DNA of 64,000 nt, from assembly GCA_023091665.1 (NCBI GenBank), contig JALJCQ010000001.1, positions 62,001 to 126,000 on the forward strand, in the 5' to 3' direction. The notes beneath the pieces were generated by a model. It did no database searches and had not been told where the DNA came from. It saw only the letters and a list, made by a program, of their open reading frames with translations. Below, piece by piece: positions 11,806-64,000 of the stretch. Within the stretch, counting starts at the first letter, position 1. Each line of letters opens with the position of its first letter. The DNA is from Pythium myriotylum (lineage: Eukaryota > Oomycota > Peronosporomycetes > Pythiales > Pythiaceae). The position numbers and the translations under genes were made by a program.

Positions 11806-12193
11806 TTTTGAGAGTGGCAGCATCGCTTGAGGAGCTCCATTGGGTTCGTAACTGACGCGTGTTTAGGTTCTTAACATGGACCTCCGTCTCACCTTCTTTT
11901 GGTAAATGAGCTCGTGAGGAGCTCATTTACCAAAAGAAGGTGAGACGGAGGCGAATGGAAGAACTTGGCTGGTCCACAAAATGAACCCACGATATGACTA
12001 TCGCTGCCTGCATGCGAAACGCCCACGAGATGCAAAGAGAGAGAGAAGGATCGACTGGTCAGAAAACCACAGGCGACTCGCTTGCGTCCCGTTGGAAGAG
12101 AGGGGCGGAGGCGGTCGCGAGTGGGATTTTAGCGATAGGAATAAAAAAAGACAAAGGCTTCGGAGGCGTTCGTCGTCTCTATGACTCGCGCTC
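11806..12193. other. Intergenic region holding a 33-bp perfect inverted repeat
   Basis: 388 bases between the deaminase start and the 3' end of the MTAP gene, both on the minus strand. Apart from the hairpin at 11881-11951, which has its own entry, nothing recognisable is seen. Confidence 0.4.
11881..11951. repeat. 33-bp perfect inverted repeat with 5-nt loop
   Basis: Left arm 11881-11913 (CCTCCGTCTCACCTTC...) is the exact reverse complement of the right arm 11919-11951, with GTGAG as loop. The bases outside do not pair. Its centre, 11908-11924, is a one-mismatch copy of a 17-mer found near other start codons in the window. It could be a young miniature element, a fold-back insertion or a regulatory hairpin about 75 bases upstream of the deaminase ATG. 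Confidence 0.85.
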
Positions 12194-21977: not shown

Positions 21978-24900
21978 ATGGCCGACGCGCCGCCGAAAGA
22001 CGCGGCCGCGAAGCCGGCCAAGTCCCGCATCGTCAACCTCACGAACCGCGCGAAGCGAGAGCTCCCCGAGGCCCCCGCAGCGAGCCCCACGCCCGCGGCG
22101 GCTCGCCCAGCGACTGCGGCGCCCGCCACGGGCTCGCCGGCGCGCCGAGCGCCCGCTGGCGCCGCCGCGACGACCACGACCACCGGCAACAGCAATACCA
22201 ACCAGCAGGCTCCACCCTGGCGCTCCTCGCCCAGCAGCGGCAACAACAACAACAACAGCAGCAACAGACCAGGCGGCAACAGCCGCTTCCCGCAAGGCGC
22301 GCGCGACTCGCGCGACCGCGGCGGCCCCGCGGGCTTCCTGCGCCGACAGAACTCGCAGGGCGGCGGCGGCCGGCCCTTCGACAACGCGCCGCCGTTCGAC
22401 CGGAGAGACCGCTTTGGACGGCCGCGCTCGCGCTCGCCGTCGCCGGGGCGCATGCGCATGCGCTCTCGCTCGCCCTCGAGGCCGCGAATGATGCGCTCGC
22501 GGTCCCGGTCGCCGCCGCCCCACGGGCGCTCGCGGTCGCGGTCTCCGCCGCCACGCTTCCGATCGCGCTCGCGCTCGCCGCCGCCGCGGTATCGCATGAT
22601 GCGCGACGACTCGTGGGACCGCGGAGGGCGAGGCGGCGGCCCGCCGTCGCGCTACGGCGACCGCTCGATGGGCGGACGAGGAGGCGGTCGCGGCGGCTTC
22701 TACGACCGCGACTTTTACGACCGCGAGCGAGATCGAAGCCGAGATCGAAGTCGCGATCGCAGTCGAGACCGCGGATGGCCAGGCGGTCGAGGAGGTGGAG
22801 GAGGAGGCGGAGGAGCGCCAGGGCTCTCGCGATACGGCAGCAACTACGGAGGAGGAGGCCGCGGCGGAGGAGGTCCACCTGCCGGCCAAGGATCAAGCGG
22901 GAGCACTGCGCCAGCGAATGCATCCAACTCGTCTGGAGGCCCAGGAGGAGCGAATTCGCGGCAAGGATCGTGGCGAGACGGCCCGCGAGGCAACGCGCCG
23001 CGACGGAGTCGGAGCCGATCGCCGCCAGGGGGACGAGGCCCGCAAGAGCCGACCAAGACGCCGGCCAAGAAGGAAGATGCGGCGCGCTCGAGACCGTCCA
23101 ACGCGACGCCATCCAAGACTGCGACCGATTCGTCGACAGCCCAGCCGCAACCACCGGCTGCTGAGTCCACAGCGTCGCCAGCCAAGCCAGACAAAGATAA
23201 AGCAGAGAAGTCTGAGGCCGCAGTACCCGAGGAAAAAGCTGCAGTCGAGTCATCGGAAGGCTCGTCCGAGGCTGTGGTTACTGACGGCAAGGGCGACACT
23301 GAGGCACCTCTAAGCGCAAGTGAGGATCTACCGAGTACCTCGGCAGTGGAAGATGCAAGTCGCGAGTCCAGTGAGAGGACAGAGAAAGCCGCGGCAGTGG
23401 TGCCGAGTGAAGATCACGTGATTAATGCTGCCGAGGACACTCAGGAGCAAACGGCAAAGCCAGAGCGAGATGAACAAAAGATCGGATCTGTCACAGATAC
23501 TAACTCTGCCGCAAAGGTCGATGATGAGGAAACGCATCAGCCCAGAAGTTCTGACGTTGAGGTGGCAGAAAGCTCGACTTCGGAGAAAGGAAGCGCAGAC
23601 AGTGAGAAAGATGTGGTTCATCATGAGGCATCAGTCAGATCGAGCGATACTGCCGTGGTCGAAGGTGTTGAAGCGTCAGGAAAGGGCTCTGGAGTAACCT
23701 CTGAGTCTGGAACGCCTGCAAAACCTCCCAAGGAGACGAAAACCTCGCCCTTAAAGACGCCAGCCAAGGTTGAAGAAACAAGTGACAAGAAGAATAAATC
23801 GCCTCCGCTGAAGCCTGTTCAGGATCGTCAACACGGAGGCCAACTGGCTAGCAAGGTCGACGAGAAGGCTGCACTCTCGGCTGAGGAGGACGGTGAGATC
23901 CCGAACGAGCCACAGGTGAAGAAGGAGACTCCTGTGCAGAAGGATGCGGTATCGTCAGCAAAGAAATTACCGGCGCAGACAGGCACGACTTCTGCAAATA
24001 CTAGCTCCCGACGAGAGACTGGCTCAAGTGGGTCAAGGAAAGAGCCTAAGGCAGAAAATGTTCCTGGCCAGGATGTGAAGCGAGGATTGGAGAGAATACA
24101 GTCCTTCTCAGAGCGCGCGAAGGCGGAGAGTGCTCGCCAAGCTGAGAAGCGTGCTGTAGAGGGAAAGTCAGCGCTCCCGTCTCGGAGAGGAAGTGGAGAG
24201 TGGAAGGAGTCTGACGCTAAGGTCAGGGTAGCTGGTGGTGATTCGCGACGGAACTCTCCCACCCTACCTCCCCAACCTTCTCGCCCTTCGTTTGATCGAC
24301 ATGCATCTATGTCATCGTTGTACGAGAGGAGTGGCAGCGATCGACCATCTCACGGTCCTGGAGGTCTCTCCAAGTCGAGATCATCCGCAGGGAACCAAGG
24401 TGGTCGCGACTCGCCAATTCGATCGCATGATCTTGGTGGTGATCGACGACGATCTCGTGTGGAAGATATCAAGAAGGAGAGCTCCCGTGATCGCGAGGCC
24501 AGAGGGAATGCGTCCGGTCCATCGTCACCCTCTGCTAGTTCACGTGGGCAGGTTTCTCGAGGATCAGCACCCTCATCTGCCCACAGTTCCCCTGTCACGT
24601 CGAAAAATGATGCTGCGTTAACACGTGAGGAGTTGCCTCCACTTCCAGAAATCCCGCATTTACCCGGGCTTACTCCACCACCATCCACTGTCAGTGAGTC
24701 GGCGGATTCGACACCAACAAAGCTAAGCAAGCGACCGCGCCTCGGTTGGGGGCAAGGACTTGTGGCTGTTTCACCTTCGGAGCCTACCAAACGCCCTCGC
24801 ATCGGGTGGGGTGAAGGGCTGGTTCAAGGTGACGATCCGCCGTCCTCATCGAGCAGCCCAGCACCTCCAAACACCACGGGATCCCCAGTTGCGACCACAA

Positions 24901-40856: not shown

Positions 40857-42460
40857 ATGGAGCCGTCGCGCGTCGTGTCGCTGCCCGTGTTCGCGCTGCT
40901 GCAGGAGAACGTGTCGCTGCTGACGATCGAGGTCGTCTCGCTGCTCGCGTCGTTCCTGCTGCTGCTGCACATCCACTCGTCGGGCAAGCGCAACGCCACC
41001 GTGTTCGCCGCCGTCGCCGTGCAGCTGCTCGCGATGGAGCTCGTTTTCTTCCGCGAGAAGCGCTGGCACGCGCAGTCGCTGGTGGGTTTTTTTCGTGTTC
41101 TGCGAGAGAAAGGCGGATCGCGTTTTCGTGCGTTTGCTCACGTCGTATCCGTGTTTTTGCGCGTCGTGGATGGTGGGAACAGATCATGCTGATCCCGGAG
41201 CGACTGCCGCTCTTCACGATCGTCGTCCAGGCCCACTTCTACTACATGTTGGTTCTCGTCGTCGATTGCAATGTGCTATTGATCGTCTATGAACTAACTG
41301 ATCATGGGTGTGGTGGGGTGGCACAGGGCTTTTGTGGCGTCGTCTCGCCTGCGGATAGACAACTTCCTGCAGCCGTTTGCGATGGGCTGCTTGGTCGTGC
41401 TGCTGCTGCTGCCGTTCGAGATCTTTGGCGCCAAGTTTCTGTGGTGGACGTGGCACGACACGGACCCGCTACTCGAGGCCCGTGTCTATGGCGTGCCGTT
41501 CCACGTGTTGTTCAACCATTTCTTCTTCTCGTTCTCGTTCTTGACCGGCCACCACATCTTCCGCTGGTTCGTTATACCCTCGACCATTGGCCGTACCCTA
41601 CGCGATAAACTCACATCGACCTGGACGCATGTAGGACGTTACTTGACGGCGACTACTACGAAGAGCAAAACTGGACACTCGAGTGGAGTTACGTGCTCTT
41701 CATCCCGGCGATGGCCACGATGTTTGGCGTCGTGCTGCTCATCCTCTTCTACCATCTCTTCACCGATCTGTTCATGGTCGACTCGCAGGTGAGCCAAGAT
41801 TGATACTCATACCTTTCATAACTTGCGGTATTCATGGTGTTGAACGATTCCCCAGACTTGCTTCATTCTGCTAATCGGTCTCAGCCTTGTCGTGTTCTGG
41901 ATGGCTGACCGAGAGCGAGACGAGCCGTACGTGCAACAGCTTCTGGCCGCGGTCGACGCCTACGACAGCGACTGGCTTTACCCGTGCATCGACCACGCCG
42001 TCAACCAGATGGTCTTCGTGTACTCGCTCATTCTCATCGTTCTCATCAGCACCGTGGATCCGGCCAACATCGTATCACTCGGCCACCACCAAGCGCTCGG
42101 CAACTGCGTCGAAGAAGAAGAGTTCCGATCCGTGCTCGGGCTTCGCCACATCCGCAAGAAGTATCTCTGCGTGCACGAGTACGACGAAGAGTTCAACTTT
42201 TGCAATTACCCTCTCACACAGGTGAGCATACTCGCGAATCGCTGCTCCAAACACACCTCCAAAATTCACACTTGTGATCCGCTGAGCAGCTCAACTACGA
42301 AGAGACCTGGTACATGATCTGCGGTCGCGGGTACAACGCCTACCCCTCGTACTTGGCCGTGATCCTCGCGCTCGTGTTCTTCACGAACTTGCTCTTCTTC
42401 CAGATCCTCAAGCGCCCCAACAACGCTCGCCGCGTCTCGTTCTCGCGCAAGCACATCTGA
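40857..42460 (+). CDS. Polytopic membrane protein of unknown function, six exons
   Basis: Exons 40857-41081, 41183-41247, 41327-41566, 41635-41788, 41856-42221 and 42290-42460; introns 101, 79, 68, 67 and 68 nt; 406 residues. Two donors are unusual (GTTGGT and GTTCGT) but are the only ones that keep frame. About seven TM segments are seen (first two about 20-62, others near 75-95, 108-128, 155-180, 205-235, 265-295 and 375-392). Landmarks are KFLWWTWHDTDPLLEARVYGVPFHV and FSFLTGHHIF. The WTWHDTD block reminds me of an uncharacterised family (DUF7802), but that recall is weak. The C-terminus ends KRPNNARRVSFSRKHI, basic and cytosolic-looking. Confidence 0.7.
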
Positions 42461-42786
42461 CCCCCTCCCCGAGACCCCGACATGGCTACATATGTCACTA
42501 CACCCAACGTCACTGTAAAGAGGGAGATGATGATCCGGAAGAAGTCCCACCCACTGATTGATCGGAACATGGCACTCGTTTATTGGTTAGATCTAGACGC
42601 TGGAATTCATTGGTTAGATTTAGACGCTCAAAGCCTAACCATTGGTCGAAACCCCACCCGACGACCAACCTTTCTACCGAACTGCCTGACGTCGTCGCGT
42701 TCTGGCTCGCGGCCCGCCGCGTCGTCCGCTCGCCCGCTCGCTTCAGGAAGCGCGCTAACGTTATTCCTTCCTTTCCCCTCGCAGCC
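42461..42786. promoter_or_regulatory. ArfGAP upstream region with paired CCAAT-type repeats
   Basis: 326 bases. ATTGGTTAGATYTAGACGCT occurs at 42582-42601 and 42609-42628 (19 of 20 identical, 27-base spacing) and a further ATTGG at 42641. Each ATTGG is an inverted CCAAT box, so this may be a promoter array for the ArfGAP gene. Confidence 0.45.
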
Positions 42787-45713: not shown

Positions 45714-46085
45714 TTGCGGGTGCGAGAAGAATGGAGGATTCGCGTGTGTGGTGGAGCTGCTCACGAGCTCTGTCACACCACTTGGGGACCCCAAGCAGCC
45801 GACGGAGGTTGCACGAAGGTCGCAGGAAGAGGTGACGTCATGGGCGAGGTGACTGGCCAATCAGTTTCTGCTTGGGAGAGACTAGATGACGGCGTCACGC
45901 TGCTTCGTCATGGGCGACTTGAATGGAGACAGAGAGAGAAGAGAAGAGAATGCTTATGTTGCACGAAGAAGATGAAGAGATGGTTATCGGTGGGTGGATT
46001 TAGACACAGGGAGAACGGAGCAGCGAGTGCGAATGCAAAGAGAGAGAGAGAGAGACGAGATGAGATGAGATGAGATCGGACGGGG
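45714..46085. other. Intergenic, upstream of PDH E1 beta, with 17-mer and GA microsatellite
   Basis: 372 bases between two minus-strand genes. GAGCTGCTCACGAGCTC lies at 45754-45770, about 41 bases upstream of the E1 beta ATG. A GA/GATGA simple repeat occupies roughly 46038-46077 beside the 3' end of the mucin-like gene. Confidence 0.45.
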
Positions 46086-47879
46086 CTACACGACGAGGGC
46101 TCCGTTCGTGAAGGCGCCTTCTTCTTCTTCTTCTTTCTCTTCCTTGTTGAGCGCTTCCTCGAGGTCGACGCTCGAGGACGCGAGTGCGTCTTCGCCTAAG
46201 GACACATTCGTGGCCTCGAACGCGTCGTCGCGGCCTGTTTGCGGCTCTGGGAGCTCGGCCGCGAGCGTGCTCTGCTCGGACTCGCTCTGCTGGCGACGGA
46301 GGTGCAGGACGCCCACGATCACGGCCAGCACGCCCACGACAGCACCGACGATCGAGCCGATCAGCATCAGCGGCTGGTACCCGTCGACGTGGAAGGCCGA
46401 CGAGTCGACCCGCGTCGCGAGCTGCGAGCCGGCCCTCTCGCTCGCCTTGTCGTCCTTGGTTGCCTTGGCATTGGGCTGCTTGGCGTGCTTAGTCGAGGTC
46501 TCCTTCTTGGAAGAAGTGTCCTTTTTCGGAGACGCGTGCTTCTTGGGCTTGTGCTCGTGCTTGGTCGCTGGCTTCTTCGGAGCGGTCTTGTGGTCGGCCT
46601 TCTTGAGATGCTTCAAATCGTCAATGTCCTGAGTGCTACCGACCGGGTCTTCCGACTCCGAAGACTCGTCATCACCGTCGTCGTCTCCTTCCGAGCCTTC
46701 CTCGGAGCCGTCGACCTTGTCGAAGAGACCGATGGCTGTGCTTTCGTCCTCGCCGCTCCCTGAGGACTCCTCGGTGCCCGACAAGTTCGAGGGAGTCTCT
46801 CTGCCTTCGTGGCTTCCATCGGTCGAGTCGACGTTGTTCCAGTGCTCGATCACACCGCTGCCATCGCCCGAGTCGTCGCTCTCGGCATTCACCGACTCGT
46901 CGCTTCCGTCGCCGGACTCTTCGCTCTCCAAGTTCTCAGTCTCGTCGCTACCGTCACTTCCGTCGCCTGACTCCACGCTCTCGGTGCTCTCCGACACACC
47001 GCTGCCCGAGCCTGAGTCGTCCCACTTGTCCGACTCGTTGCTGCCCGAGCCCGAGTGGTCCAAGCTGTCACTGGCCGGAGTCTCCTCGTGTTTGCCCAAG
47101 AGCGTAGTGCGCGGTCCTTCGAAAGGGCCGCGGAGCACGTCGCGGTTGCCTTCGCCCTCGTTGAGGTCGCTGGCTTCGAGCTTGGGCTTGTGGGCAGCGC
47201 TCGCGATGTTCTTGAGCGTGACCTTGAAGCTCGGCGCCACTGGCTTGCGCATATGGACCACAGGCTTCTTCGCGACCGTCTTCGCCTGCACCTTCTTCGG
47301 CGCTGCGTTGTGAGCCTTGGCTGGGGCCATCTTGATGACAGGCTTCTTGGCGACAGGCTTCTTGACCACTGGCATCTTGACCACGGGCTTCTTGACCACG
47401 GGCTTCAACACGTCGGCCATCTTAACGACGGGCTTCACAATCTTCTTCGGGTCCGCCTTCTTGGCCTCCGGCTTCTTGGCCACAGGCCTGGGAGCCTCAG
47501 GCTTTTTCACCACGGGCTTTTTCACCACGGGCTTCTTGGCCTCCGGGTTCTTGGCCACAGCCTTGGGAGCCTCAGGTTTCTTCACCACGGGCTTCTTGGG
47601 TTGCTCCACCTTCTTGGCGACAGGCTTCTTAGCCTCGACTTTCTTCGCCACGGGCTTCTTGGCCTCTGCCTTCTTGGCCTCGACATGCTTGGGCGCTGGT
47701 TTCTTGTTCTCGACGTGCTTGCCCTCATGGCTCTTCGCGAGCGGATGGAAGAGGCGCTGCTTGATGGCTTTGGCCTGCTGCGGCGTGAGGTGCGCGCGAG
47801 GAGCCTCGGCGGTCGTCGACTCGACCGCGAGAGCGGCAAAGGCGACCGTTGCGAGCAGAAGCGTGGAGGCGATCTTCAT
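46086..47879 (-). CDS. Mucin-like single-pass surface protein with Lys/Pro repeats and acidic Ser-rich domain
   Basis: 597 residues from ATG 47879. The signal peptide MKIASTLLLATVAFAALAVESTTA is followed by a short globular part. Next is a long tandem array of KKPVAKKxEAKKP-type units (about 55-230), an acidic Ser/Gly/Asp/Glu region with many SGDGSDES-like units (about 270-420), a second basic stretch (about 430-480), one TM (about 503-525, LMLIGSIVGAVVGVLAVIVGVL) and a cytosolic acidic tail. The charge-block pattern suggests a glycosylated cell-wall or adhesive protein. Family unknown. An in-frame extension upstream to 48200 lacks a signal peptide and is not used. Confidence 0.75.
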   Translation of the reverse strand: MKIASTLLLATVAFAALAVESTTAEAPRAHLTPQQAKAIKQRLFHPLAKSHEGKHVENKKPAPKHVEAKKAEAKKPVAKKVEAKKPVAKKVEQPKKPVVKKPEAPKAVAKNPEAKKPVVKKPVVKKPEAPRPVAKKPEAKKADPKKIVKPVVKMADVLKPVVKKPVVKMPVVKKPVAKKPVIKMAPAKAHNAAPKKVQAKTVAKKPVVHMRKPVAPSFKVTLKNIASAAHKPKLEASDLNEGEGNRDVLRGPFEGPRTTLLGKHEETPASDSLDHSGSGSNESDKWDDSGSGSGVSESTESVESGDGSDGSDETENLESEESGDGSDESVNAESDDSGDGSGVIEHWNNVDSTDGSHEGRETPSNLSGTEESSGSGEDESTAIGLFDKVDGSEEGSEGDDDGDDESSESEDPVGSTQDIDDLKHLKKADHKTAPKKPATKHEHKPKKHASPKKDTSSKKETSTKHAKQPNAKATKDDKASERAGSQLATRVDSSAFHVDGYQPLMLIGSIVGAVVGVLAVIVGVLHLRRQQSESEQSTLAAELPEPQTGRDDAFEATNVSLGEDALASSSVDLEEALNKEEKEEEEEGAFTNGALVV

Positions 47880-48592
47880 AGCAGGAGGTGGTAGGGGGGA
47901 TGCGCGGCGCGTTGCAAAGTGAGCCGTCGCCGGAAGAAGCGGAGCCGAGCCGAGGGAGCTCGCTGGTGAGCCCAAACGCGACGGCTCGCAGCCCCCGTCG
48001 CGTTGGGAAACGCCTCTCGTCATCTTGGAGACCAAGGGGCAGCACTCGCAGCTGCGACAGCGTGGGTTTCGCCTGCGCGACGGAAGCGAGCTGTTTTCTC
48101 CTGCTGTGGGCTCCATTGGGCCGCCCAAGCAGGAGCTCTTCGCACGAAAGCGGAACGTTCCGAAACTGGCGCGTGGTTTCAGGAACCTCTCGGAATACAT
48201 TTAGGCACCTCGAGAAGATCCATTTGAATCCATCTACACGCATTTCATGGTCGAAATTGAAACTGCGAAATATAGTACCCGGTCAAATGCGGTGATTGAT
48301 GAGTTGCGATCTTGAAGAGACACTCGCGAAGATGCAGCGCTGGACGCGTTCGGCGTCATCTTCAGAATTTACGATCTTTAGTGCCCCATCGGCTGTACAA
48401 AAGACTAAGAACTCCCACGTTGAAGTGAGCATCTCTGCGACGAGGTTGTCCTTCTCTTCTTCTCTCTCGCTCATGAATGCTACGGTTGCTCCCGGGCTCG
48501 CCGCGTCGCTCACCAACGCCAGCTCCTCGCTTCATGCCGCCGTTGGTCCACACGAAAGCACCTTGCACAATTGGATTTGAGCTCACACCAGC
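47880..48592. other. Divergent intergenic region between mucin-like and MDR dehydrogenase genes
   Basis: 713 bases with both promoters. A possible small minus-strand frame (48283-48474) is listed separately; otherwise no gene, repeat or RNA is seen. Confidence 0.4.
48283..48474 (-). CDS. Possible small ORF, unknown
   Basis: 63 residues starting MSEREEEKDNLVAEMLTS, with balanced charged and hydrophobic content (EFLVFCTADGALKIV, SEDDAERVQRC) that looks more protein-like than most shadow frames here. No family is recognised and it sits in a promoter-like gap, so it could be a gene remnant or chance. Confidence 0.25.
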   Translation of the reverse strand: MSEREEEKDNLVAEMLTSTWEFLVFCTADGALKIVNSEDDAERVQRCIFASVSSRSQLINHRI

Positions 48593-54112: not shown

Positions 54113-54976
54113 ATGGGCAACAAGCTCTTCAAGGGCTCCTACGACGAGCGCATCGTGGTTGTGCGCTCGCACACGGCCGAGTGCGAGCGAGACTGTCGCG
54201 CCATCGGCCTGAGCGAGGTCGACTCGTTCGACGCGGCCGGCTTCACCGAGCGCCGCGACGCGTATCTCGCACCGGGTATCACGTGCTGGTGGGAGAAACC
54301 CGACGAGGACGCCATTCGGCGGCGTGAGCAGCGCGAGGCCGACGAGCGACGCCGCCAGCAGGAGCAAGAGGCTCAAGCTCAGCGCGCGCAGCAACAGGCC
54401 GAGGAACGGCGCCGCCAGGAGGAACGACAGGCTGAGGAGCGGCGTCGCCAACAGCAGCAAGAGGCCGAGGCTCATCGCCAGGCTGAGGAGCGCCGGCATC
54501 AGCAGCAGCGAGAGGCCGAGGCGGCCCAGGCCCATCACGAGGCCCAAGAGCGAGATGCAGCGGAGGCTCGACGCGTTGAGGGAACCCAGGCTCGCGCGGA
54601 AGCGGCGGTGAGCAAAGCACGACAGCACGTTAGTGAGGCAATCGAGAACGCGAGGGTGGCAGTTGAGGCGCACGCAACGAGAGAATTGGAGACTGCGCGG
54701 CGTGTTGAAGAGGCGAGGAAGAAGAGGGTTGAGGAGCTGGAGACTGCAGAGCGCGAGCGTCAGGAGAGACTGCGAGCCTCACGTACGCAGGGCCTGGCGA
54801 ACGCTGAGTCGGTGCATGACGACCATCTCGACGCCGCGTTCCACGCTTTAGACTTGTATGCTGATGAGATGGGGGCTCGACTGGATGACGAACGATGGGA
54901 AGATATGGTGGAGCGAGACGCGGAGATGCAGGAGGAAGGCCAGCGTCGGCGTGTGCAACAGCAAGTGCAGTGGTGA
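54113..54976 (+). CDS. CC1: head plus coiled-coil protein, GTPase-cluster partner
   Basis: 287 residues from ATG 54113. Head domain about 1-65 (FKGSYDERIVVVRS...IGLSEV...FTERRDAYLAPGITCWWEKPD), then about 190 residues of continuous coiled coil rich in Arg, Glu, Gln and Ala, and a conserved C-terminus ending QQQVQW. The start MGNKLFKGS has Gly2 and could be N-myristoylated, though Ser/Thr is not at position 6. Related to CC2, CC3 and CC4. Convergent with CC2 across 164 bases. Function unknown. The recurring divergent pairing of such genes with dynamin-like GTPases suggests an adaptor or membrane tether for the GTPase. Confidence 0.75.
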   Translation: MGNKLFKGSYDERIVVVRSHTAECERDCRAIGLSEVDSFDAAGFTERRDAYLAPGITCWWEKPDEDAIRRREQREADERRRQQEQEAQAQRAQQQAEERRRQEERQAEERRRQQQQEAEAHRQAEERRHQQQREAEAAQAHHEAQERDAAEARRVEGTQARAEAAVSKARQHVSEAIENARVAVEAHATRELETARRVEEARKKRVEELETAERERQERLRASRTQGLANAESVHDDHLDAAFHALDLYADEMGARLDDERWEDMVERDAEMQEEGQRRRVQQQVQW

Positions 54977-55025
54977 GATAAAATATGAAAAGTAATGAGA
55001 TGGAAAACACGGCTGCAAGTTTACA

Positions 55026-55046
55026 CCTTACAAACGACTTGTAAGG
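55026..55046. other. Short hairpin between convergent CC1 and CC2 genes
   Basis: CCTTACAA (55026-55033) and TTGTAAGG (55039-55046) with a 5-nt loop; the same hairpin is conserved at about 61723-61743 between CC3 and CC4. It may help 3' end formation of the convergent transcripts. Confidence 0.4.
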
Positions 55047-55140
55047 CTACACTAGGGTAGTCTGGTTGTTCACCAGTCTAGAAGATAAGCCACAGTCTAG
55101 TTGCGCAGGAAGCAAAACACTAACAGGAGTTCTCTGCTTC

Positions 55141-56076
55141 TCACCACTGCACTTGCTGCTGCACAAGTTCGCGCTGGGCCATCGCCAATGTGGGCGCCTC
55201 GCTCTCCTCCACTCGTTCCCAGTGTTCCTCTTCCGCTCGAGCGCCCGCCACTGCACCGTACGCGTCCAGCAGAGTCAACGCGGCCTCAAGCTCCTCGTCG
55301 ACACTCAACGACGTTGGCGTTTGGTCTTGTGCGCGTGTTTCTTCTTGAAGTCTGCCTCGGCGCTCGCGCTCGATATGCCTTAGGGCTTCCGATCGACGAC
55401 GTCTCGCCTTTTCGATGCGGCGCGCTGACTCCGCCTCGGAGACCGCGAGACGCTCAAATGCTCCACGAGCATCTGCGACTGCCGTCTCGATAGTTTGATT
55501 ACCGTTGGTAACTTCGGTTGCTACTCGCAAACAAGTTTCCTTAACGCGTCGAGCAGCAGACTCGTGTTCCAACTCACGACGCTCTGCAGCCGCTTGCAGC
55601 TCACGGCCCACCGCCTCTTCGATCTCTTGTTGCCGACGTCGCTCTTCTCTCTCTCGGTCCTGTGTTTCCCGCGCCTGGTCCGCTTGCTCACGCCGACTCG
55701 TCTCGGCGTCGCGCTGCTGGCGGAGTTTCTCGGTTGTATGCTGTTGCTCTTTGAGAACTTCGTCCAGTTTGATCTGGAACTGGTGGCGGATCTCGGCCTC
55801 TCGCTCGGCGGCTTCGCGCTTCTCTCGAATCCGGATGGCTTCCCAGTCGGGCTTTTCATGCCAGAACGTGATTCCAGGCGCCAGGAACCCGGTGCGGCAC
55901 GTGAAGGTGCTGAAGTCGATGGAGTCCGCCGGCACTTGTTGAAGGCCGATTGCCTCACAGTCGCGGTGGTGTTGAAAGAGGGATGCACGGGCGACCACGA
56001 TTTTCTCGTTGTACGAGCCCGAGTAGACGTTGCTCTGGAAAGAGACATAGCCCGAGACGGTGTTGTACCGGAACAT
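55141..56076 (-). CDS. CC2: head plus coiled-coil protein, divergent from GTP1
   Basis: 311 residues from ATG 56076. Head about 1-80 (YSGSYNEKIVVARAS...CEAIGLQQV...CRTGFLAPGITFWHEKPD), then a coiled coil of about 200 residues and a C-terminus ending QQQVQW. From about residue 73 to the end the DNA is nearly identical to CC4 (61843-62556; four substitutions noticed in 714 bases, no indels), while the heads share only scattered residues. The start MFRYNT is not a myristoylation site, unlike CC1 and CC4. Head-to-head with GTP1 across 447 bases. Confidence 0.78.
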   Translation of the reverse strand: MFRYNTVSGYVSFQSNVYSGSYNEKIVVARASLFQHHRDCEAIGLQQVPADSIDFSTFTCRTGFLAPGITFWHEKPDWEAIRIREKREAAEREAEIRHQFQIKLDEVLKEQQHTTEKLRQQRDAETSRREQADQARETQDREREERRRQQEIEEAVGRELQAAAERRELEHESAARRVKETCLRVATEVTNGNQTIETAVADARGAFERLAVSEAESARRIEKARRRRSEALRHIERERRGRLQEETRAQDQTPTSLSVDEELEAALTLLDAYGAVAGARAEEEHWERVEESEAPTLAMAQRELVQQQVQW

Positions 56077-56523
56077 TGGTCTCTGGAACGCGAATGTCGA
56101 ATTGGCGCGAGAGTTCTTGGACCACTGCAGCGAATTGACTACAGGTCAGTCTCGTCTGACACAACGTCGAGCACGAGAAGAAGACTTTGGAAACTCTTCC
56201 ACAGAAAACTCTTCGTCAATGCTGCTCACTCAGTACCCAACTCAGAACTAGACCTCGATTGTAGAGACTTCGTTTGTCACGAGCCCCACTCCCGCAACGA
56301 CGAACCCAAATCAGAAATCTCGCCAATTGGCGTTTCAGGGGTAACGATCTTTTTCTCTCTCGCTCAACCAATAGCCACACTCCACGAAGACAAATCGTTC
56401 TGTGAACTCTCCACTCGACTGGAGCGAAAGAGTCAACGACTGATCTCATGTCCGGGCCCACCAACTTGCAGTGCTCCACGGATCCTCGTCGCATTGGCCC
56501 TCCACGTCATTATCGTTTTAAGC
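56077..56523. promoter_or_regulatory. Divergent region between CC2 and GTP1
   Basis: 447 bases between opposite start codons; expected to hold a shared bidirectional promoter. AT-richer than the coding parts. No other gene or clear repeat seen. Confidence 0.45.
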
Positions 56524-59055
56524 ATGGCGTCGCCTCAAGTGCTTCGCGACGAGCTGCTCTTCGCGATCGCCGACGCTCTTGGCCAGTGCCACGCGATCCG
56601 TTCGTCAATCGACGACGACGCAACGTCTCCCGTCGACTCGCTGAAAGATTCCACACAGACTATCGTGGAATCACTGACAGGACTTCACGGACGCGTGGAG
56701 GGCTACTCGCTCTCTGTGCTGGTCGCTGGCTTGCTCAAGAGTGGCAAGAGCTCGCTCATCAATTCGCTTCTTAGCGCTCTGTGCAGCCCCATCGACGACG
56801 ATGCCGCCACGTCTGTGCTACTCACGGCAGTTGAAGACACCGAACGACGCGACTTCTCGCTCTCAACCATGAGCGGACGAGAGCTCGAGCGAGGTGGTCC
56901 TCGCGCGATCAAGACGCGAGTGCAACAAATCAATGGCCAGCTGCGAAGTGATGACCTGGCGGAGAGTGAGGAGACCGAGCTGCTGCTGCGGATGCCACCG
57001 CGAGCGTACTCGCGCGACGGACTCTCGCTTCACATCGTCGACTCGCCCGGCGTGAACGAGGACCAGTCGCCCAACATCCGCCAGCGTTGGCTGCAGGCCG
57101 TCGCGAGTGCCGACGTGTTCGTCATGGTCGTGCCGTACTCACCCAGCGGATCAAGAGACGAAGGCGACCTGTGGCGCCAGCTTGCGGACGAGCTGCCTCG
57201 ACATGCCATTGAGAACCTCGTGCTCTTCATCAACAAGTACGATCTGGCAATTGTGAACCCACGGGATAAGGAAGCCCACCGCCTACGGACCAAGCAGGCG
57301 CGCGCCACATATGTGCGCAAAGCCACGAACGGCCGCATCAACATCGATATCTCGCACGTCTTTCTCGGTTGCGCACGCGACGCGATGATCGCTCGCACGA
57401 TCTTGGAGCTGTCCACCGACAGAGAGAGTGAGCTGAACACCGAGGCCTTCGTGGAAGAGCACGAGGCGCTTATTGGGCTCGTTCGCCATGTCTTTCTCAA
57501 GCGCCGAAACCGAGTCGATCTCTCAAGCGCACATGCGCTACACAGCGTAGAAGACTGGACGGAAGTGCTGGAAGGGAGCGGCTTCAACCAACTGGACGCA
57601 TTCCTGCGCACGAGGGCTCGCGTCTGCGCCGTCGCTCACGTCCGCAAGCTGCTGACAGAGGTACAGTCGTACTGCAACCGCGTCCAGCAGTTGACTCGGT
57701 TGGGTATTGAGTCAGTGACGGGAGCCGAACGCTCAGAGGCATCCAGACTCGCCGATAATGCTAGCGCGAACCGGCTGGTTGGCAAGTACTTTTCGGAAGA
57801 GACTCAAGAGGAAGACGACGCCTGCTGCGTGCAGATACGTCAGTCGCTGAAGCGACTAGCAGCTGACATTTGCTTGGAGCTGGCAGAAATTCGCAACGAC
57901 TCGGTCTTCGCCGAGATCCCAGAACGACTGGATCCAGCACAGAGCGATGAACTTGTACGAATTGTCGAAACTTTTCGAGACAAAGTACATGTGGTCGTCA
58001 GCAACAAGCTGCAGCTCTTCGGTGAGCGAGTGGGTCAGCTTACGCAGCGTCGCCGGGAGCTGCGTAGGTCTTTCCGCGAGCCTGTTGAGCAGATCATCGA
58101 AGCACATGGCATCGCAATGCCGAACGATTTCTTTTCGTTGAATGAAGACAGTGGTTCTGGTGATGACTCAGCCGAACAGTTCTTAGCCCTCTTGCTCTCG
58201 CGGATCGAGGATTTCGGCCGATTGGATGTTGAGCAGCTTCTGCTAATCGCACGACGAGTGACAAAACCGGCACTTGCCGCAGGAGACCGTTTTGCAGCCG
58301 AAGGCGATTTCGCCCAGAATCCTCAACACGACGCACGATTGTCAGGGCACTGGAACTGGCACGAGCAGACGTGTATGCTCGGAAACCGCGAGGACGAGTT
58401 CGTGGCGACAGTCAACATCGATCCAACTTTCGTGGGCCAGCATTTCGTGCTCAAACTCGAGCACCTCACGACCAACGAAGGCGACCGCCCACGCGCAGCC
58501 GTAGCTGTGACAATCAACGGAACGACAGTGCGGACGGCGTTCGTTCCGCTAGCTTCTGGCCAAATGAGTAACACCAACGTTGGTTCATTCAGCTACGTCA
58601 CCGACCGCTGGTTCCTCGCGCCGGAGTGGATCCAAGCCGGCGACAATGTGCTCAAGATTGCCTACGTCGATGGCAGTTCGCATTATTGGCTGAAACGCTG
58701 GTCTCTCAGCGCTTCAGTGCCACCGTCCGAAGAGGAACTCCTGAGCCGAGACGACGTGCTCACCCTGCTCACCGCGTCGGCTATCGCAATCCTCGGGGCT
58801 TCCGACGATCACGATTTACAGCTTGAGCAGATCGTCACCACAACGTCACCGGCGGGCGTACGAGAAAACGCGAGCGAGAGGTGTGCGCAGTTGCTCGACG
58901 AGCTCGCGCGATCGAGTCGAGACCGACTCGAGAGCTTGGTGCAGCATCGAGCAATGCTGTCGCAGATTGCCGAGCAGAGCGAATGCCTGAAAGACTCGAC
59001 CAGGAACGCGGTGATACGCCTCGCGCGGCTCACGCAGACTGTGCAGAGAGCGTGA
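56524..59055 (+). CDS. GTP1: dynamin-like GTPase with C-terminal beta-rich domain
   Basis: 843 residues, intact. GTPase motifs: P-loop GLLKSGKSS (from residue 69), switch region Thr/Ser in AATSVLLTA (about 96-104), DSPG (from 173) and NKYD (from 237). This is the dynamin-superfamily pattern rather than Ras type. A long helical part follows (about 300-560, with QRRRELRRSFREPVEQIIEAHGI). Next is a beta-strand-rich module at about 585-730 (FAAEGDFAQNPQHDARLSG, TVNIDPTFVGQHFVLKLEHL, VTINGTTVRTAF, VLKIAYVDGSSHYWLKRWSLSAS) that looks like a jelly-roll or carbohydrate-binding fold, then a C-terminal helical tail. I do not recognise this architecture as a named family. No TM is seen. Divergent from CC2. 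Confidence 0.8.
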   Translation: MASPQVLRDELLFAIADALGQCHAIRSSIDDDATSPVDSLKDSTQTIVESLTGLHGRVEGYSLSVLVAGLLKSGKSSLINSLLSALCSPIDDDAATSVLLTAVEDTERRDFSLSTMSGRELERGGPRAIKTRVQQINGQLRSDDLAESEETELLLRMPPRAYSRDGLSLHIVDSPGVNEDQSPNIRQRWLQAVASADVFVMVVPYSPSGSRDEGDLWRQLADELPRHAIENLVLFINKYDLAIVNPRDKEAHRLRTKQARATYVRKATNGRINIDISHVFLGCARDAMIARTILELSTDRESELNTEAFVEEHEALIGLVRHVFLKRRNRVDLSSAHALHSVEDWTEVLEGSGFNQLDAFLRTRARVCAVAHVRKLLTEVQSYCNRVQQLTRLGIESVTGAERSEASRLADNASANRLVGKYFSEETQEEDDACCVQIRQSLKRLAADICLELAEIRNDSVFAEIPERLDPAQSDELVRIVETFRDKVHVVVSNKLQLFGERVGQLTQRRRELRRSFREPVEQIIEAHGIAMPNDFFSLNEDSGSGDDSAEQFLALLLSRIEDFGRLDVEQLLLIARRVTKPALAAGDRFAAEGDFAQNPQHDARLSGHWNWHEQTCMLGNREDEFVATVNIDPTFVGQHFVLKLEHLTTNEGDRPRAAVAVTINGTTVRTAFVPLASGQMSNTNVGSFSYVTDRWFLAPEWIQAGDNVLKIAYVDGSSHYWLKRWSLSASVPPSEEELLSRDDVLTLLTASAIAILGASDDHDLQLEQIVTTTSPAGVRENASERCAQLLDELARSSRDRLESLVQHRAMLSQIAEQSECLKDSTRNAVIRLARLTQTVQRA

Positions 59056-59517
59056 ATGTCGTGACTGTTTTTTTCCCGTATCGTGTAGGATAGAAGGTTC
59101 ATCACGATTTGTAGGGAGATTGATCTCGAAAAAGTAATGGCGAAGATGTCTCCCATATCTTTGTCCATCCTAGATTTACAATCTGCAGATCTACGAGCAA
59201 TTTGGAGGTGTCGAAGGCCCCCGCACGCGGTTCAGTTGAGATCACCGATAGAATGCTCGCACGAGGCAGGATCCCTCGCCGTGGGTTTGCATTCCGCGTC
59301 CCGCAACTCGCAAGAGGCAAGTAGTCACCGATGTGACTACTCTGCTGGACTCATGACTTCGTGTTTCGACAAGAGGTCAGAGTAGCATAGATCTTCTTGC
59401 GAGTCAACGGTGGAGACTGAAGCCTGAGAGCTGCTGTCAAAGTCTGCACGTGATGCTGGGTGAAATCGCCTCGTTAAGATCTTCAATTTTACGTCAGAAA
59501 TCTCCACGTCCTCTCAC
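59056..59517. other. Convergent intergenic region between GTP1 and GTP2
   Basis: 462 bases between two facing 3' ends. No gene, repeat or element recognised. Confidence 0.4.
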
Positions 59518-61113
59518 TCAATCCTGGAGCTCTTGCTGGATCTTGCGAGCTAGTTGTACAAGCCCTTCGACTGCGTGCTCGGTCGACTCTTTGAGCTTCC
59601 TAACCTGCTCGACCAGCTGCGCCAGAGCCTCGCGGGTCTCCGTGTGTCCTCCAAGATCTTCGTGGCTTGTTCTCGCCAGCTCCCGGAGCAACTGCGTGTA
59701 GTGCTCACTGGCCACGCGCTGCACCGCTAGCGGTGAGGTCACCGTGATGATCTGCTCGAGCTCCTTGCGGTGATCATCGTCGGGTACGACGGTCGTTAGC
59801 ACCGTCGCCATCACAGTCGTAAGCACGTCCTCTCGTCGCAGGAATCGGTGCTCGGTCGCCGGCAGCGAGGCGCTGACCGACCAGCGCTTGAGCCAGTAGC
59901 GCGACGTGCCGTCGACGTAGGCGATCTGGAGCACGTTCGTGCCGGCTCGAACCCACTCGGGTGCGACGAGCCAGCGATCGACGACGAAGCTGAAGAGCCC
60001 GACTTTGTTGTCGTTAACCTCGTGGACCGCGCGAGGATCGAATGCCGTGCGCACCGCTGTGCCATTGATGGTCGCGGTCACAGCCGAGCGTGAGCTCTCG
60101 CCAACGTTGCTCGTGAGATGCTCGAGCTCAAGCACGAAAGGCTGGCCTACAAAGGCCGAGTCGACCTCGATCGTCGCGATGAACTCGTTATGGTAACCTA
60201 GAAGACACGTCTCGTTGTACCAGATCCAGTTACCGGACAGCCGAGGATCGCGGCGAGGATCCTGTGCAAAGTCTCCAGCTGCGGTGAAGCTCGCCCCAGC
60301 GACTAGCGTCGACTGGATGGCGAGTCTCACGTTGCGCATGAGTTGGCCCGTGTCAAAGTGGACAAATCCGTGAAGCCATGACAGCGACCGATCGATCGAT
60401 CCGGCGACCAGTTCACTGCTGTCGTCTCTGCTATCATCTTCTTCGACATGAACAAGGAAATTACTGGGCGTATTGATCCCATGTGCGCGAAGAATCTCCT
60501 CAATTCTCTCTCGGAAGGATCGGCGTAGCTCTTGGCGTCGCGTGGTAAGTAGCTGGATGCTCTCACGGAAATGTTTGCGCTCATCATTCACTACCGACTG
60601 TACCTGTGCTCGGATCGTCTCTAAAAGCCCTTCGAGCAAGTCGTTCTGTTCCGGGTCGATGTGTTCGGGAAACTCATTGAGGCTGCCACTCTCGCGAATG
60701 CGGTCGAGCGCCAGTCGGATACGAGACGTCAGCGTGTTCAGAGACTCGCGCAGCTGGGTGCAGTAAGCCTCATCCTCGACACGAGCTTCTTCCGTCAAGA
60801 ACGTCTGGATCAATCGCTCGGCGTTCGCGATGTCGGCAAGCGTAACCTCTCCCGAGCGGCCATCAGCGAATGACGCAGTCACTGGCTGGACGCGGTTGCA
60901 GGACAACTGCACGATGGACAAGAGCTTGCGAATATGGGCGACAGCACAAACGCGAGCCCGCGCGCGTAAGAACGCATCCAACTTGTCGAAGCCACTTGCT
61001 TCGAGCACTTCGTCCCAGTCTTCCACACTATGCAGCGCACGAGCACTGCTTAGCTGGGCGCTGCTGCTGCCATGGAGGAACACGCTTTGTACCAATCCAA
61101 TGAGCTTGTTATG
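59518..61113 (-). pseudogene. GTP2: truncated copy of the dynamin-like GTPase, G domain missing
   Basis: The frame matches GTP1 from LIGLV...FL (GTP1 about residue 320) to the end, including HSVEDW, RTRARVCAVAHIRKLL-like, RRQELRRSFRERIEEIL and the whole beta-rich module (LVAGASFTAAGDFAQDPRRDPRLSGNW...VLQIAYVDGTSRYWLKRWSVSAS). The P-loop, DxPG and NKxD parts are absent because the gene ends at the fold-back palindrome at 61081-61197. The frame stays open and begins at an ATG (61170) supplied by the palindrome. Similarity to GTP1 is moderate, so the two copies are older than the CC2/CC4 identity. A stable GTPase-free product cannot be ruled out. Confidence 0.75.
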
Positions 61114-61197
61114 CAGCATAACAAGCTCATTGGATTGATACAAAGCGTGGAAGAGTTCCGTGAGGAGCATAACTTATGCTCCTCACGGAACTCTTCC
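61081..61197. repeat. Double fold-back palindrome joining truncated GTP2 and CC3
   Basis: First palindrome: 61081-61114 and 61116-61149, 34-nt arms with one mismatch and a 1-nt loop. Second: 61149-61172 and 61174-61197, perfect 24-nt arms and a 1-nt loop. Read through, the arms are pieces of the GTPase coding sequence (EEFREEH and NKLIGL-type codons) in alternating orientation, so the structure arose by copying GTPase DNA back and forth. It is placed exactly at the truncation points of both neighbouring genes. Confidence 0.9.
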
Positions 61198-61673
61198 AGC
61201 AGCAGCGAGAGGCCGAGGCGGCCCAGGCCCATCACGAAGCGCAAGAGCGAGCAGCAGCGGAGGCTCGACGTGTTGAGGGAGCCCAGGCTCGCGCCGAGGC
61301 GGCGGTGGAGGAAACCCGGCAGCACGTTGATGAGGTAATCGAGAACGCGAGGGTGGCGGTTGAGGCGCACGCAACGGGAGAATCGGAGACTGCCCGGCGT
61401 GTCGAAGAGGCGAGGAAGAAGAGGGTTGAGGAGCTGGAGACTGCGGAACGCGAGCGTCAGGAGAGACTGCGAGCCTCACGTACGCAGGGCCTGGCGAACG
61501 CTGAGTCGGCGCATGACGACCATCTCGATGCCGCGTTCCACGCTTTAGACTTGTATGCTGATGAGATGGGGGCTCGCTTGGAGGACGAGCGATGGGAAGA
61601 AATGGTGGAGCGAGACGTGGAGATGCAGGAGGAAGGCCAGCGCCTGCGCATGCACCAGCAAGTGCAGTGGTGA
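61176..61673 (+). pseudogene. CC3: truncated head-less coiled-coil copy
   Basis: From 61197 the sequence matches CC1 from about 54500 to its stop (offset 6697, scattered substitutions). The head and first part of the coiled coil are missing. The frame is open from ATG 61176 inside the palindrome (MLLTELFQQQREAEA), giving 165 residues ending HQQVQW. Probably a relic. It would be divergent from GTP2 in the same way as the other pairs. Confidence 0.7.
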
Positions 61674-61842
61674 GATAAAGATATGGAAAGTAATGGGATG
61701 GAAGCCACGGCTGCAAGTTTACACCTTACAAACGACTTGTAAGGCTACACTAGGGTAGTCTGGTTGTTCACCAGTCACTGTAGAAGATAAGCCACAGTCT
61801 AGTTGCACAGGAAACAAGCCACTCGCAGGAGACCTCTGCTTC

Positions 61843-62772
61843 TCACCACTGCACTTGCTGCTGCACAAGTTCGCGCTGGGCCATCGCCAATGTGGGCGCC
61901 TCGCTCTCCTCCACTCGTTCCCAGTGTTCCTCTTCCGCTCGAGCGCCCGCCACTGCACCGTACGCGTCCAGCAGAGTCAACGCGGCCTCAAGCTCCTCGT
62001 CGACATTCAACGACATTGGCGTTTGGTCTTGTGCGCGTGTTTCTTCTTGAAGTCTGCCTCGGCGCTCGCGCTCGATATGCCTTAGGGCTTCCGATCGACG
62101 ACGTCTCGCCTTTTCGATGCGGCGCGCTGACTCCGCCTCGGAGACCGCGAGACGCTCAAATGCTCCACGAGCATCTGCGACTGCCGTCTCGATAGTTTGA
62201 TTACCGTTGGTAACTTCGGTTGCTACTCGCAAACAAGTTTCCTTAACGCGTCGAGCAGCAGACTCGTGTTCCAACTCACGACGCTCTGCAGCCGCTTGCA
62301 GCTCACGGCCCACCGCCTCTTCGATCTCTTGTTGCCGACGTCGCTCTTCTCTCTCTCGGTCCTGTGTTTCCCGCGCCTGGTCCGCTTGCTCACGCCGACT
62401 CGTCTCGGCGTCGCGCTGCTGGCGGAGTTTCTCGGTTGTATGCTGTTGCTCTTTGAGAACTTCGTCCAGTTTGATCTGGAACTGGTGGCGGATCTCGGCC
62501 TCTCGCTCGGCGGCTTCGCGCTTCTCTCGAATACAGATGGCTTCCCAGTCGGGCTTCTCCCACCAGCGTGTAATGCCCAGCGCGAGACTTCCTCGGCGCT
62601 CCGTGAAACCCGTGAGATCGTAGGATCTGGTCATGTGCAGGCCGATTCGTTCGCTGTCATTGGGGCGGCCGCCGAGATGCCACTCAGTATCATCGAAATG
62701 GTAGGTTTCGAACACGACCACGATCCGGCCATCGTACGAGCCCGTGAAGGCTACGGACGATGTCGACCCCAT
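61843..62772 (-). CDS. CC4: head plus coiled-coil protein, divergent from GTP3
   Basis: 309 residues from ATG 62772. MGSTSS is a good N-myristoylation start (Gly2, Ser6). Head about 1-75 (FTGSYDGRIVVVFE...ERIGLHMTRSYDLTGFTERRGSLALGITRWWEKPD), closer to CC1 than to CC2 in the FTERR...GIT.WWEKPD part. From about residue 73 it is almost identical to CC2, including the C-terminal QQQVQW. The head/tail identity boundary is abrupt at about 62556. Head-to-head with GTP3 across 265 bases. Confidence 0.78.
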   Translation of the reverse strand: MGSTSSVAFTGSYDGRIVVVFETYHFDDTEWHLGGRPNDSERIGLHMTRSYDLTGFTERRGSLALGITRWWEKPDWEAICIREKREAAEREAEIRHQFQIKLDEVLKEQQHTTEKLRQQRDAETSRREQADQARETQDREREERRRQQEIEEAVGRELQAAAERRELEHESAARRVKETCLRVATEVTNGNQTIETAVADARGAFERLAVSEAESARRIEKARRRRSEALRHIERERRGRLQEETRAQDQTPMSLNVDEELEAALTLLDAYGAVAGARAEEEHWERVEESEAPTLAMAQRELVQQQVQW

Positions 62773-63037
62773 GAGTCTTCGAGCTCGGAAAGGAAAGTGA
62801 GACCCTGGACTTGGATCTGACTTCCGATAGGTGGCACGGATCGAAACGTATCTTCAATCTGTTTTAATGGGATACGCCACTTCACAGGTTATCACACTTT
62901 GCTTTGGAGCATGGATTCTTTTCTGTTTGACGGGGTATTCGAATTCCTCTCAACGAGAAGATCTTGGCGTGCTCTGGCGGCTGTTAGACGTCTGCAAAGA
63001 CCGCATGTCTTGTCAGTCCGGACGCGTCGCCACCGCC

Positions 63038-64000
63038 ATGGCGCTGGCCCACGCGCGGCTACGAGAGGCTCTGCGACGCGAGATCGCCGATGTGACGGCC
63101 CAGAGCCTCGCGATCCGCTCGTCCATCGACGCACTCGCGTCTTCATCGTCCTCGTCTCCTCTCGCAGCTCTGCTCGAGCCCACGCAGGCGGCTACCACAG
63201 CACTGGCGTCGCTGGATGAACGAGCGATGAGCTGCTCGCTCTCCGTGTTGGTCGCGGGTCTGCCACAGAGTGGCAAGAGCTCGCTCGTCAATGCACTGCT
63301 GGGCTCGCTGTGCATCCCCACGGGCGACGAGGCCGCCACGTCTGTTTGATGATGATGATGAAGTCTATTGAGTTCAACTAGTGAATCCTAATAGCTCCAC
63401 TGGGTTTCGACTGTTTTAAAGCTCAACGCTACTCGCGGTGGAAGCCGCGAGCCACGGAAGTAGGTCGTTGTACAGCATCACCGAGAGATCAGAGTGACCG
63501 CCTCGGGTGGTTGGGTGAAGGACTTGCGAGCTAGATCGCAATTCCATCGCAAGATTGGCGAGTAGATCAGCCATCTTGTTGTACAGCCGCAACCGCCCGG
63601 TGACACCATCCGGTTTACGGGGCCGAGGCACCGCCCGCCCTGAGTGTGACCGGCGTTAACAGTCAACAAATAAAAGTCAATAAAAGATTGGGTTGGACAC
63701 TGGTGTGCGTAGCGAGTTCCCACGCGCGAGGCGGCGAGTACGGCAGTCGTAGCCCGAAGATGGCGTGGAGGAGGAGAGGGGTCGCTGTTGACTCTTCTTC
63801 ACACTCAAGATCTAGTGTAGTCCACCAGGTACGAGGCCGCCACGTCTGTGCTGCTCACGGCAGTCGACGACGCGTCCGAGCGACGCGCGTTCTCGATCTC
63901 AACCAGGAGCGGCCGAGAGATTGAACGTGGCACAGCACGGAGTATCCAGGCACGTATTCAGGAGATCAACACAGTGGTCAATCGTGACAACGTGGCCGAG
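63038..64000 (+). pseudogene. GTP3: dynamin-like GTPase split by an insertion (partial, runs off window)
   Basis: Start taken at 63038 (MALAHARLREALRREIADV) because it lines up with MASPQVLRDELLFAIADAL of GTP1. The P-loop GLPQSGKSS is present, then the frame stops at 63347-63349 just after EAATSV. Homology to GTP1 resumes at 63831 (EAATSVLLTAVDDASERRAFSISTRSGREIERG) in a consistent frame and is open to the window end. The break is caused by the 485-bp insertion, not by point mutation. The product as it stands would be about 103 residues and lacks most of the G domain. Confidence 0.75.
63346..63830 (-). mobile_element. 485-bp insertion with 19-bp target duplication, likely 5'-truncated non-LTR retroelement
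   Basis: ACGAGGCCGCCACGTCTGT at 63327-63345 recurs at 63831-63849, flanking the insert. Read on the minus strand the insert ends in a (TCA)n simple tail (63346-63361), as LINE 3' ends often do. A frame (63416-63631, minus) contains LYNKMADLLANLAMELRSS, which resembles the RNase H-like end of non-LTR polyproteins as I remember them. No intron reading fits: splicing at its GT and AG would shift the frame. Confidence 0.55.

Follow-up and report, generated by a model that had tools for sequence, protein, structure and literature searches.

A 64,000-nucleotide stretch of Pythium myriotylum DNA (the window; contig JALJCQ010000001.1, here C1, positions 62001-126000) carries in its last 10 kb one intact gene for a dynamin-like GTPase and the gene of its partner, amid copies of both that are decaying. 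An intact cluster lies 74 kb away, and this repeat is its inverted, decaying copy. From fold prediction, the GTPase appears to be a real variant of the dynamin superfamily, of the bacterial/mitofusin type, with an unusual inserted domain that resembles the jelly roll of family 35 carbohydrate-binding modules (CBM35). The partner is a head-and-rod protein (CC) encoded divergently on the opposite strand. We propose that the two form an oomycete module in which the partner anchors a GTPase that tethers or remodels membranes, and we consider this reading evenly balanced between right and wrong. The genome analyzed comprises 58.7 Mb in 55 contigs and is taken here as that of an oomycete: elicitins, a family not known outside oomycetes, have 135 matches in it and none in 14 control genomes, a comparison that is silent on other eukaryotes since the controls named are prokaryotes. 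C1 coordinates refer to the whole contig and all others to the window; copies are counted as found, and these counts are lower bounds because genome searches score the best candidates only.

Three GTPase and four CC loci had been claimed in an earlier note on this DNA, in the repeating order GTPase(-)/CC(+)/CC(-)/GTPase(+). All seven are where they were placed and the order is present, the window reading CC1(+), CC2(-), GTP1(+), GTP2(-), CC3(+), CC4(-) and GTP3(+, 5' part only). The repetition is real: a 1,364-bp stretch recurs at 95.7% identity and the first palindrome scores E 1e-24, which excludes chance by far. Every GTPase and CC match listed in the genome-wide search sits on C1, between 34 and 152 kb. 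The left cluster (C1:34-43 kb) is arranged CCB(-)/GTPB(+)/GTPA'(-)/CCA'(+)/CC fragment(-), and its four full-length genes are all open. An inverted duplication of 95.9% identity links C1:36080-42493 to a 6.4-kb arm in the window (54675..61114), the two being separated by 74 kb. Thus GTP1 is a copy of GTPA' (98%), and GTP2 a truncated copy of GTPB (98% across GTPB residues 316-847). The A and B GTPases are 53% identical, with a synonymous divergence (dS) of 1.39, and to judge from these values they are old paralogues. Among the GTPase copies, the ratio of nonsynonymous to synonymous change (dN/dS, codons with gaps excluded) is below 1. The A and B genes stand tail to tail, as would be left by mirror-image duplication of one divergent pair, an event that this end of C1 seems to favor. 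Along the inverted repeat, identity varies between 81% and 100% in bins of 250 columns: it is 81-90% across the divergent promoter region and CC head, and mostly 98-100% across the GTPase and CC 3' halves, which suggests that gene conversion spares the head end or has replaced it. CC4 (61843..62772, -) joins a B-type head, 60% identical to that of CCB, to an A-type rod matching that of CC2 at 220 of 222 positions, and is a chimaera whose rod was exchanged.

GTP1 (56524..59055, +) is the A-type gene, an uninterrupted frame of 843 aa. It was rightly called dynamin-like, as it matches Dynamin_N (PF00350, E 8e-9) and its G domain carries the motifs GLLKSGKS, DSPG and NKYD. GTP1, GTPA' and P0010, a relative from a protein collection, all score above the PF00350 cut-off and have GxxxxGKS, DSPG and NKYD; GTPB also scores above it, but its G4 motif is NNFK instead of NKYD. 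Both the G domain and the beta domain are conserved. The GTP1 series runs from N-terminal helices through the G domain, neck/trunk helices and a CBM35-like jelly roll to C-terminal helices, and in the predicted structure the neck/trunk helices (354-565) are closed by the C-terminal ones (742-842). The "beta-rich tail" of the earlier note is thus not a tail, as about 110 mostly helical residues come after the beta domain. This sandwich (residues 586-732; 58279..58719, +) is predicted to fold as a CBM35-like jelly roll, and to fill the stretch of the trunk where BDLP and mitofusins carry a paddle or a transmembrane element. Pfam searches matched no CBM35 profile, with E limits of 1 for GTP1 and 5 for P0010, GTPB and GTPA', and the GTP1 beta domain alone matched no PDB sequence better than E 0.69. 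Within the dynamin superfamily the closest fold is of the BDLP/mitofusin type, the best Z score (19.9) being that of mitofusin-1. Assembly-stimulated GTPase activity and membrane binding are features of the superfamily and would be expected of this protein. The idea that the beta domain arose from a polysaccharide-lyase domain III of the same genome (PF14683, two matches) was rejected, the profile comparison covering 12 columns with a probability of 0.2%; a CBM-like PF14683 match in P0010 (E 0.12) was not taken as evidence.

The GTPase variant is apparently confined to few lineages. Full-length GTP1 found no relative at E<=1e-3 among 8,000 scored candidates, absence being unproven since the protein searches required shared 5-residue words and the oomycete content of the collection was not established. 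With GTPB region 330-847 there was one relative at E<=1, P0010 (7,989 candidates scored); the number of candidates was capped in this search and in that with GTP1. For the CC1 head, 130 candidates yielded no relative at E<=10. None was confirmed in scans of viral contigs with GTPB, alignment A2, P0010 and the CC alignment, or of prokaryotic genome contigs with A2 and P0010. In the literature covered, which included few subscription papers, nothing was found on such an oomycete protein or on any dynamin that contains a CBM-like domain, the nearest being the Phytophthora-associated dynamins of oomycetes.

Five of the CC proteins have a head (CC1, CC2, CC4, CCA' and CCB). In CC1 (54113..54976, +; 287 aa, starting MGNKLF), the head (residues 1-63) is predicted with good confidence to be beta-beta-alpha-beta-beta, followed by a 162-residue helix and then a second one (mean pLDDT 88, pTM 0.33). 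No match was found in Pfam (CC1, CC2, CC4), NCBIfam (all five headed proteins) or PADLOC (CC1, CCA', CCB), and fold comparison with the PDB gave nothing trustworthy. The CC1 rod is nearer to that of CCB (59%) than to that of CC2 (40%). Glu, Arg and Gln abound in the rods, where large hydrophobic residues make up 8-16% (five segments from four proteins). Their heptad power is mostly at chance level (p 0.06-0.67 for ILVMFYW, 0.016-0.46 with Ala added), and they have more pairs of opposite charge at i+3/i+4 than expected (p 0.002-0.008), a trait of single alpha helices. The long rod is therefore more likely to be a charged single helix than the coiled coil that had been claimed, which is unsupported. 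The myristoylation-type start also claimed is predicted, by sequence pattern, for three of the five headed proteins (CC4, CCA' and CCB), and not for CC1 or CC2. CC2 (55141..56076, -; 311 aa) is the A-type partner gene of GTP1 and is 84% identical to its copy CCA'; an insertion after its start codon displaces the Gly-2 that CCA' keeps.

All five of the GTPase 5' ends found face a CC head encoded on the other strand, across 447 bp (GTP1), 460 bp (GTPA'), 285 bp (GTPB), 265 bp (GTP3) and about 460 bp (a decayed third A copy). Seen from the other side, five of the seven CC heads found are divergent from a GTPase, with the head of CC1 and a fragment at C1:128474 unpaired; two headless CC fragments (C1:151220-151562 and 42192-42515) were left out of these counts. 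The first of these is a CC1-like rod fragment, near which no GTPase match was found. In three of the pairs, CC2/GTP1, CCA'/GTPA' and CCB/GTPB, the frames of both partners are full length. Since the copies descend from one another, the pairs amount to about one independent adjacency, retained through the old A/B split. Head type tracks GTPase type, at 70% identity between CC2 and CCA', 60% between CC4 and CCB, and 44-49% across types, a matching that physical linkage alone could explain. The 447-bp region between CC2 and GTP1 (56077..56523) is a candidate bidirectional promoter, and its GTPase-proximal part is near-identical across the three A-type copies.

The claim that all the GTPases are head-to-head with CC genes is exact for CC2/GTP1 (447 bp) and CC4/GTP3 (265 bp, 62773..63037), and wrong for GTP2/CC3. 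GTP2 (59518..61170, -) is a B-type copy without its 5' part, a 550-aa open reading frame (ORF) that has no G domain. CC3 (61176..61673, +) is a headless ORF of 165 aa, a 5'-truncated copy of CC1 (88% identical). Both ORFs start inside a palindrome, on opposite strands, with the same accidental MLLTELF. This rearrangement junction (61081..61198) is an imperfect palindrome pair of 69 + 51 bp, with 66/69 bases self-complementary at 61081-61149 and 50/51 at 61148-61198, and the arms of both are B-type GTPase codon stretches around VEEFREEHNKLIG. The meeting point looks like a template-switch junction joining two truncated genes, and so the claimed third pair is not a pair. GTP3 (63038..64000, +) is a B-type pseudogene that runs past the window to about C1:126308, and an insert starting at 63346 refutes a working copy. 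This insert is a dispersed element (63346..63830) bordered by a 19-bp target duplication (63327-63345 and 63831-63849). The element has at least 47 genome matches, the window copy included (best 40 of 284 candidates scored), and in at least four other copies (C31, C34, C9 and C7) the same two ends lie about 1 kb apart, so that the window copy looks internally shortened. Past the window GTP3 suffers a frameshift and then truncation near C1:126308, where it abuts the inverted 5' end of the third A-type GTPase, whose decayed CC head is about 460 bp away.

From these data a model of the module, with its likeliest mechanism, can be proposed. The partner protein would join a compact folded head to a long, charged helix and be anchored to a membrane via its N-terminus, where several copies have the myristoylation-type start. 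Its rod would space or recruit the GTPase, with which we infer that it interacts and is co-regulated. The jelly roll might recognize a glycan or a lipid headgroup, and GTP-driven dimerization of the G domains would then tether or reshape the membrane. The earlier interpretation of a divergent, membrane-acting GTPase/CC module is partly supported, its functional side being inferred throughout.

How A and B have diverged bears on whether they act together. Against P0010 as sole outgroup (823 sites, gapped columns excluded, p uncorrected for the domains tried), GTPB and GTP1 have changed equally overall, at 80 and 82 sites. The changes are distributed in opposite ways: 39 on B against 14 on A in the G domain (p 0.0008), 8 and 21 in the sandwich (p 0.024), and 7 and 17 in the C-terminal helices (p 0.064), with the trunk (22, 25) and N-terminal helices (4, 5) alike. 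When GTPA' is substituted for GTP1, the differences keep the same directions. B has also lost the G4 motif, NNFK standing for NKYD, which GTPA and P0010 keep. Changes in opposite domains would fit a heterotypic A+B pair, like the paired bacterial dynamins, and with caution they may be read as a division of labor, A hydrolyzing and B binding. They could also come from recombination, if the outgroup or an ancestor were chimaeric, with an A-type 5' half joined to a B-type 3' half. Gene conversion is evident locally, as in CC4 with its B-type head and A-type rod and in the 81% to 100% identity per bin of the inverted repeat; the G4 loss in GTPB, in neither GTPA nor P0010, points however to a real change on the B side. 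We put recombination a little below even chances, and with one outgroup it is nearly as good an explanation as division of labor.

The pairing itself may be inherited adjacency and nothing else, that is, a single ancestral GTPase gene and a single ancestral rod gene, divergent neighbors by chance, whose arrangement was copied by repeated mirror-image duplications without functional coupling. The copies found are all confined to about 118 kb of a single contig, an entire block was copied by the inverted duplication, and CC1 has a head without a GTPase, two of the seven heads in the genome being unpaired. This seems to us rather unlikely, given that the A and B pairs both retain the arrangement at 53% identity (dS 1.39) and that all four genes of the left cluster are still open. 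It is far less probable that the window cluster is in part an assembly artefact at the palindrome. Fold-back junctions are typical of chimaeric reads, but here the palindrome arms differ (66/69, 50/51), the GTP2 and CC3 segments have substitutions of their own, and no such junction is present in the left cluster, which is intact. As for function, a part in surveillance or defence is plausible. The GTPase might instead be a housekeeping or developmental membrane-remodelling dynamin, of mitochondria or vesicles for example, with no part in defence, as its nearest folds (mitofusins and bacterial dynamin-like proteins) and the dN/dS below 1 between copies would suggest. Yet a single relative was found, the churn of copy number, pseudogenes and gene conversion is unlike a conserved housekeeping gene, and 10 of the 13 Dynamin_N matches in the genome belong outside the GTP family; we therefore see this as a minority possibility. 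The boldest version of the membrane module is improbable, though not negligibly so. It would be an oomycete-specific intracellular surveillance system, in which a heterotypic dynamin pair (A for hydrolysis, B for glycan or lipid recognition by its CBM35-like tip) is kept at a fixed distance from membranes by a myristoylated single-helix ruler with a GTPase-matched head, expressed from a shared bidirectional promoter. Such a system would sense membranes that are damaged or foreign and wrap them, taking the role of GBP and IRG proteins with unrelated parts.

Other features lie around the two clusters. Flanking the left one is an ORF that matches a SecA P-loop (C1:29471-33989; PF21090, E 2e-7), and the next ORF is OTU-like by eye only. 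On its other side, two related adjoining genes (C1:43536-45518 and 45888-47915) form an inverted duplication, 90% identical over 1,435 bp, the first having a weak leucine-rich repeat match (E 0.009). A further inverted pair (C1:20593-21843 and 22467-23717; 1,251 bp, 99.4%) holds twin ORFs starting MKTASYL, secreted-looking by eye. To the right of the window cluster there are Ty3-like retroelement ORFs (C1:129524-135026, gag match PF03732) and a 792-bp direct repeat of 99% identity (C1:128726-129513 and 141854-142645). Within the window there is a second palindrome at 11881-11951 (71 bp, 95.8% self-complementary).

If the proposed module is right, it presents a dynamin architecture not met in the searches made, with a carbohydrate-binding-type sandwich at the slot by which other dynamins hold membranes. 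It would be a second eukaryotic lineage of bacterial-type dynamins, after the mitofusins, which may act as paralogue pairs, and would add a partner protein family without known kin. It would also offer a testable entry to how internal membranes are remodelled or guarded in oomycetes, major parasites of plants and animals.

Mitofusins carry a transmembrane hairpin. Mitofusins and Fzo1 share with our GTPase the co-alignment of N- and C-terminal helices with the G domain, but sequence identity is about 12%, the jelly roll occupies the place of the hairpin, and there is no sign of mitochondrial placement. Compared with family 35 carbohydrate-binding modules, the beta domain gave no sequence match in the searches made and is located inside a dynamin rather than beside a glycosidase. 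The Phytophthora-associated dynamins (PADS) are likewise oomycete dynamin-superfamily genes outside the Dyn/Drp core; in their description they stand near an Mx-like clade, in a tree that omitted mitofusins and Fzo (PMC11789081), whereas ours, placed by matches rather than by a joint tree, seems to fall on the bacterial/mitofusin side. The best sequence and fold matches are the bacterial dynamin-like proteins (BDLP, IniA, LeoA, Cj-DLP1/2 and SynDLP), which share the G domain and the neck and trunk helices, and among which side-by-side paralogue pairs are usual (PMC6104087). The Pythium proteins differ from them in their eukaryotic host, the CBM35-like jelly roll in the trunk, the tail-to-tail arrangement of A and B, and the divergently encoded rod-protein partner.
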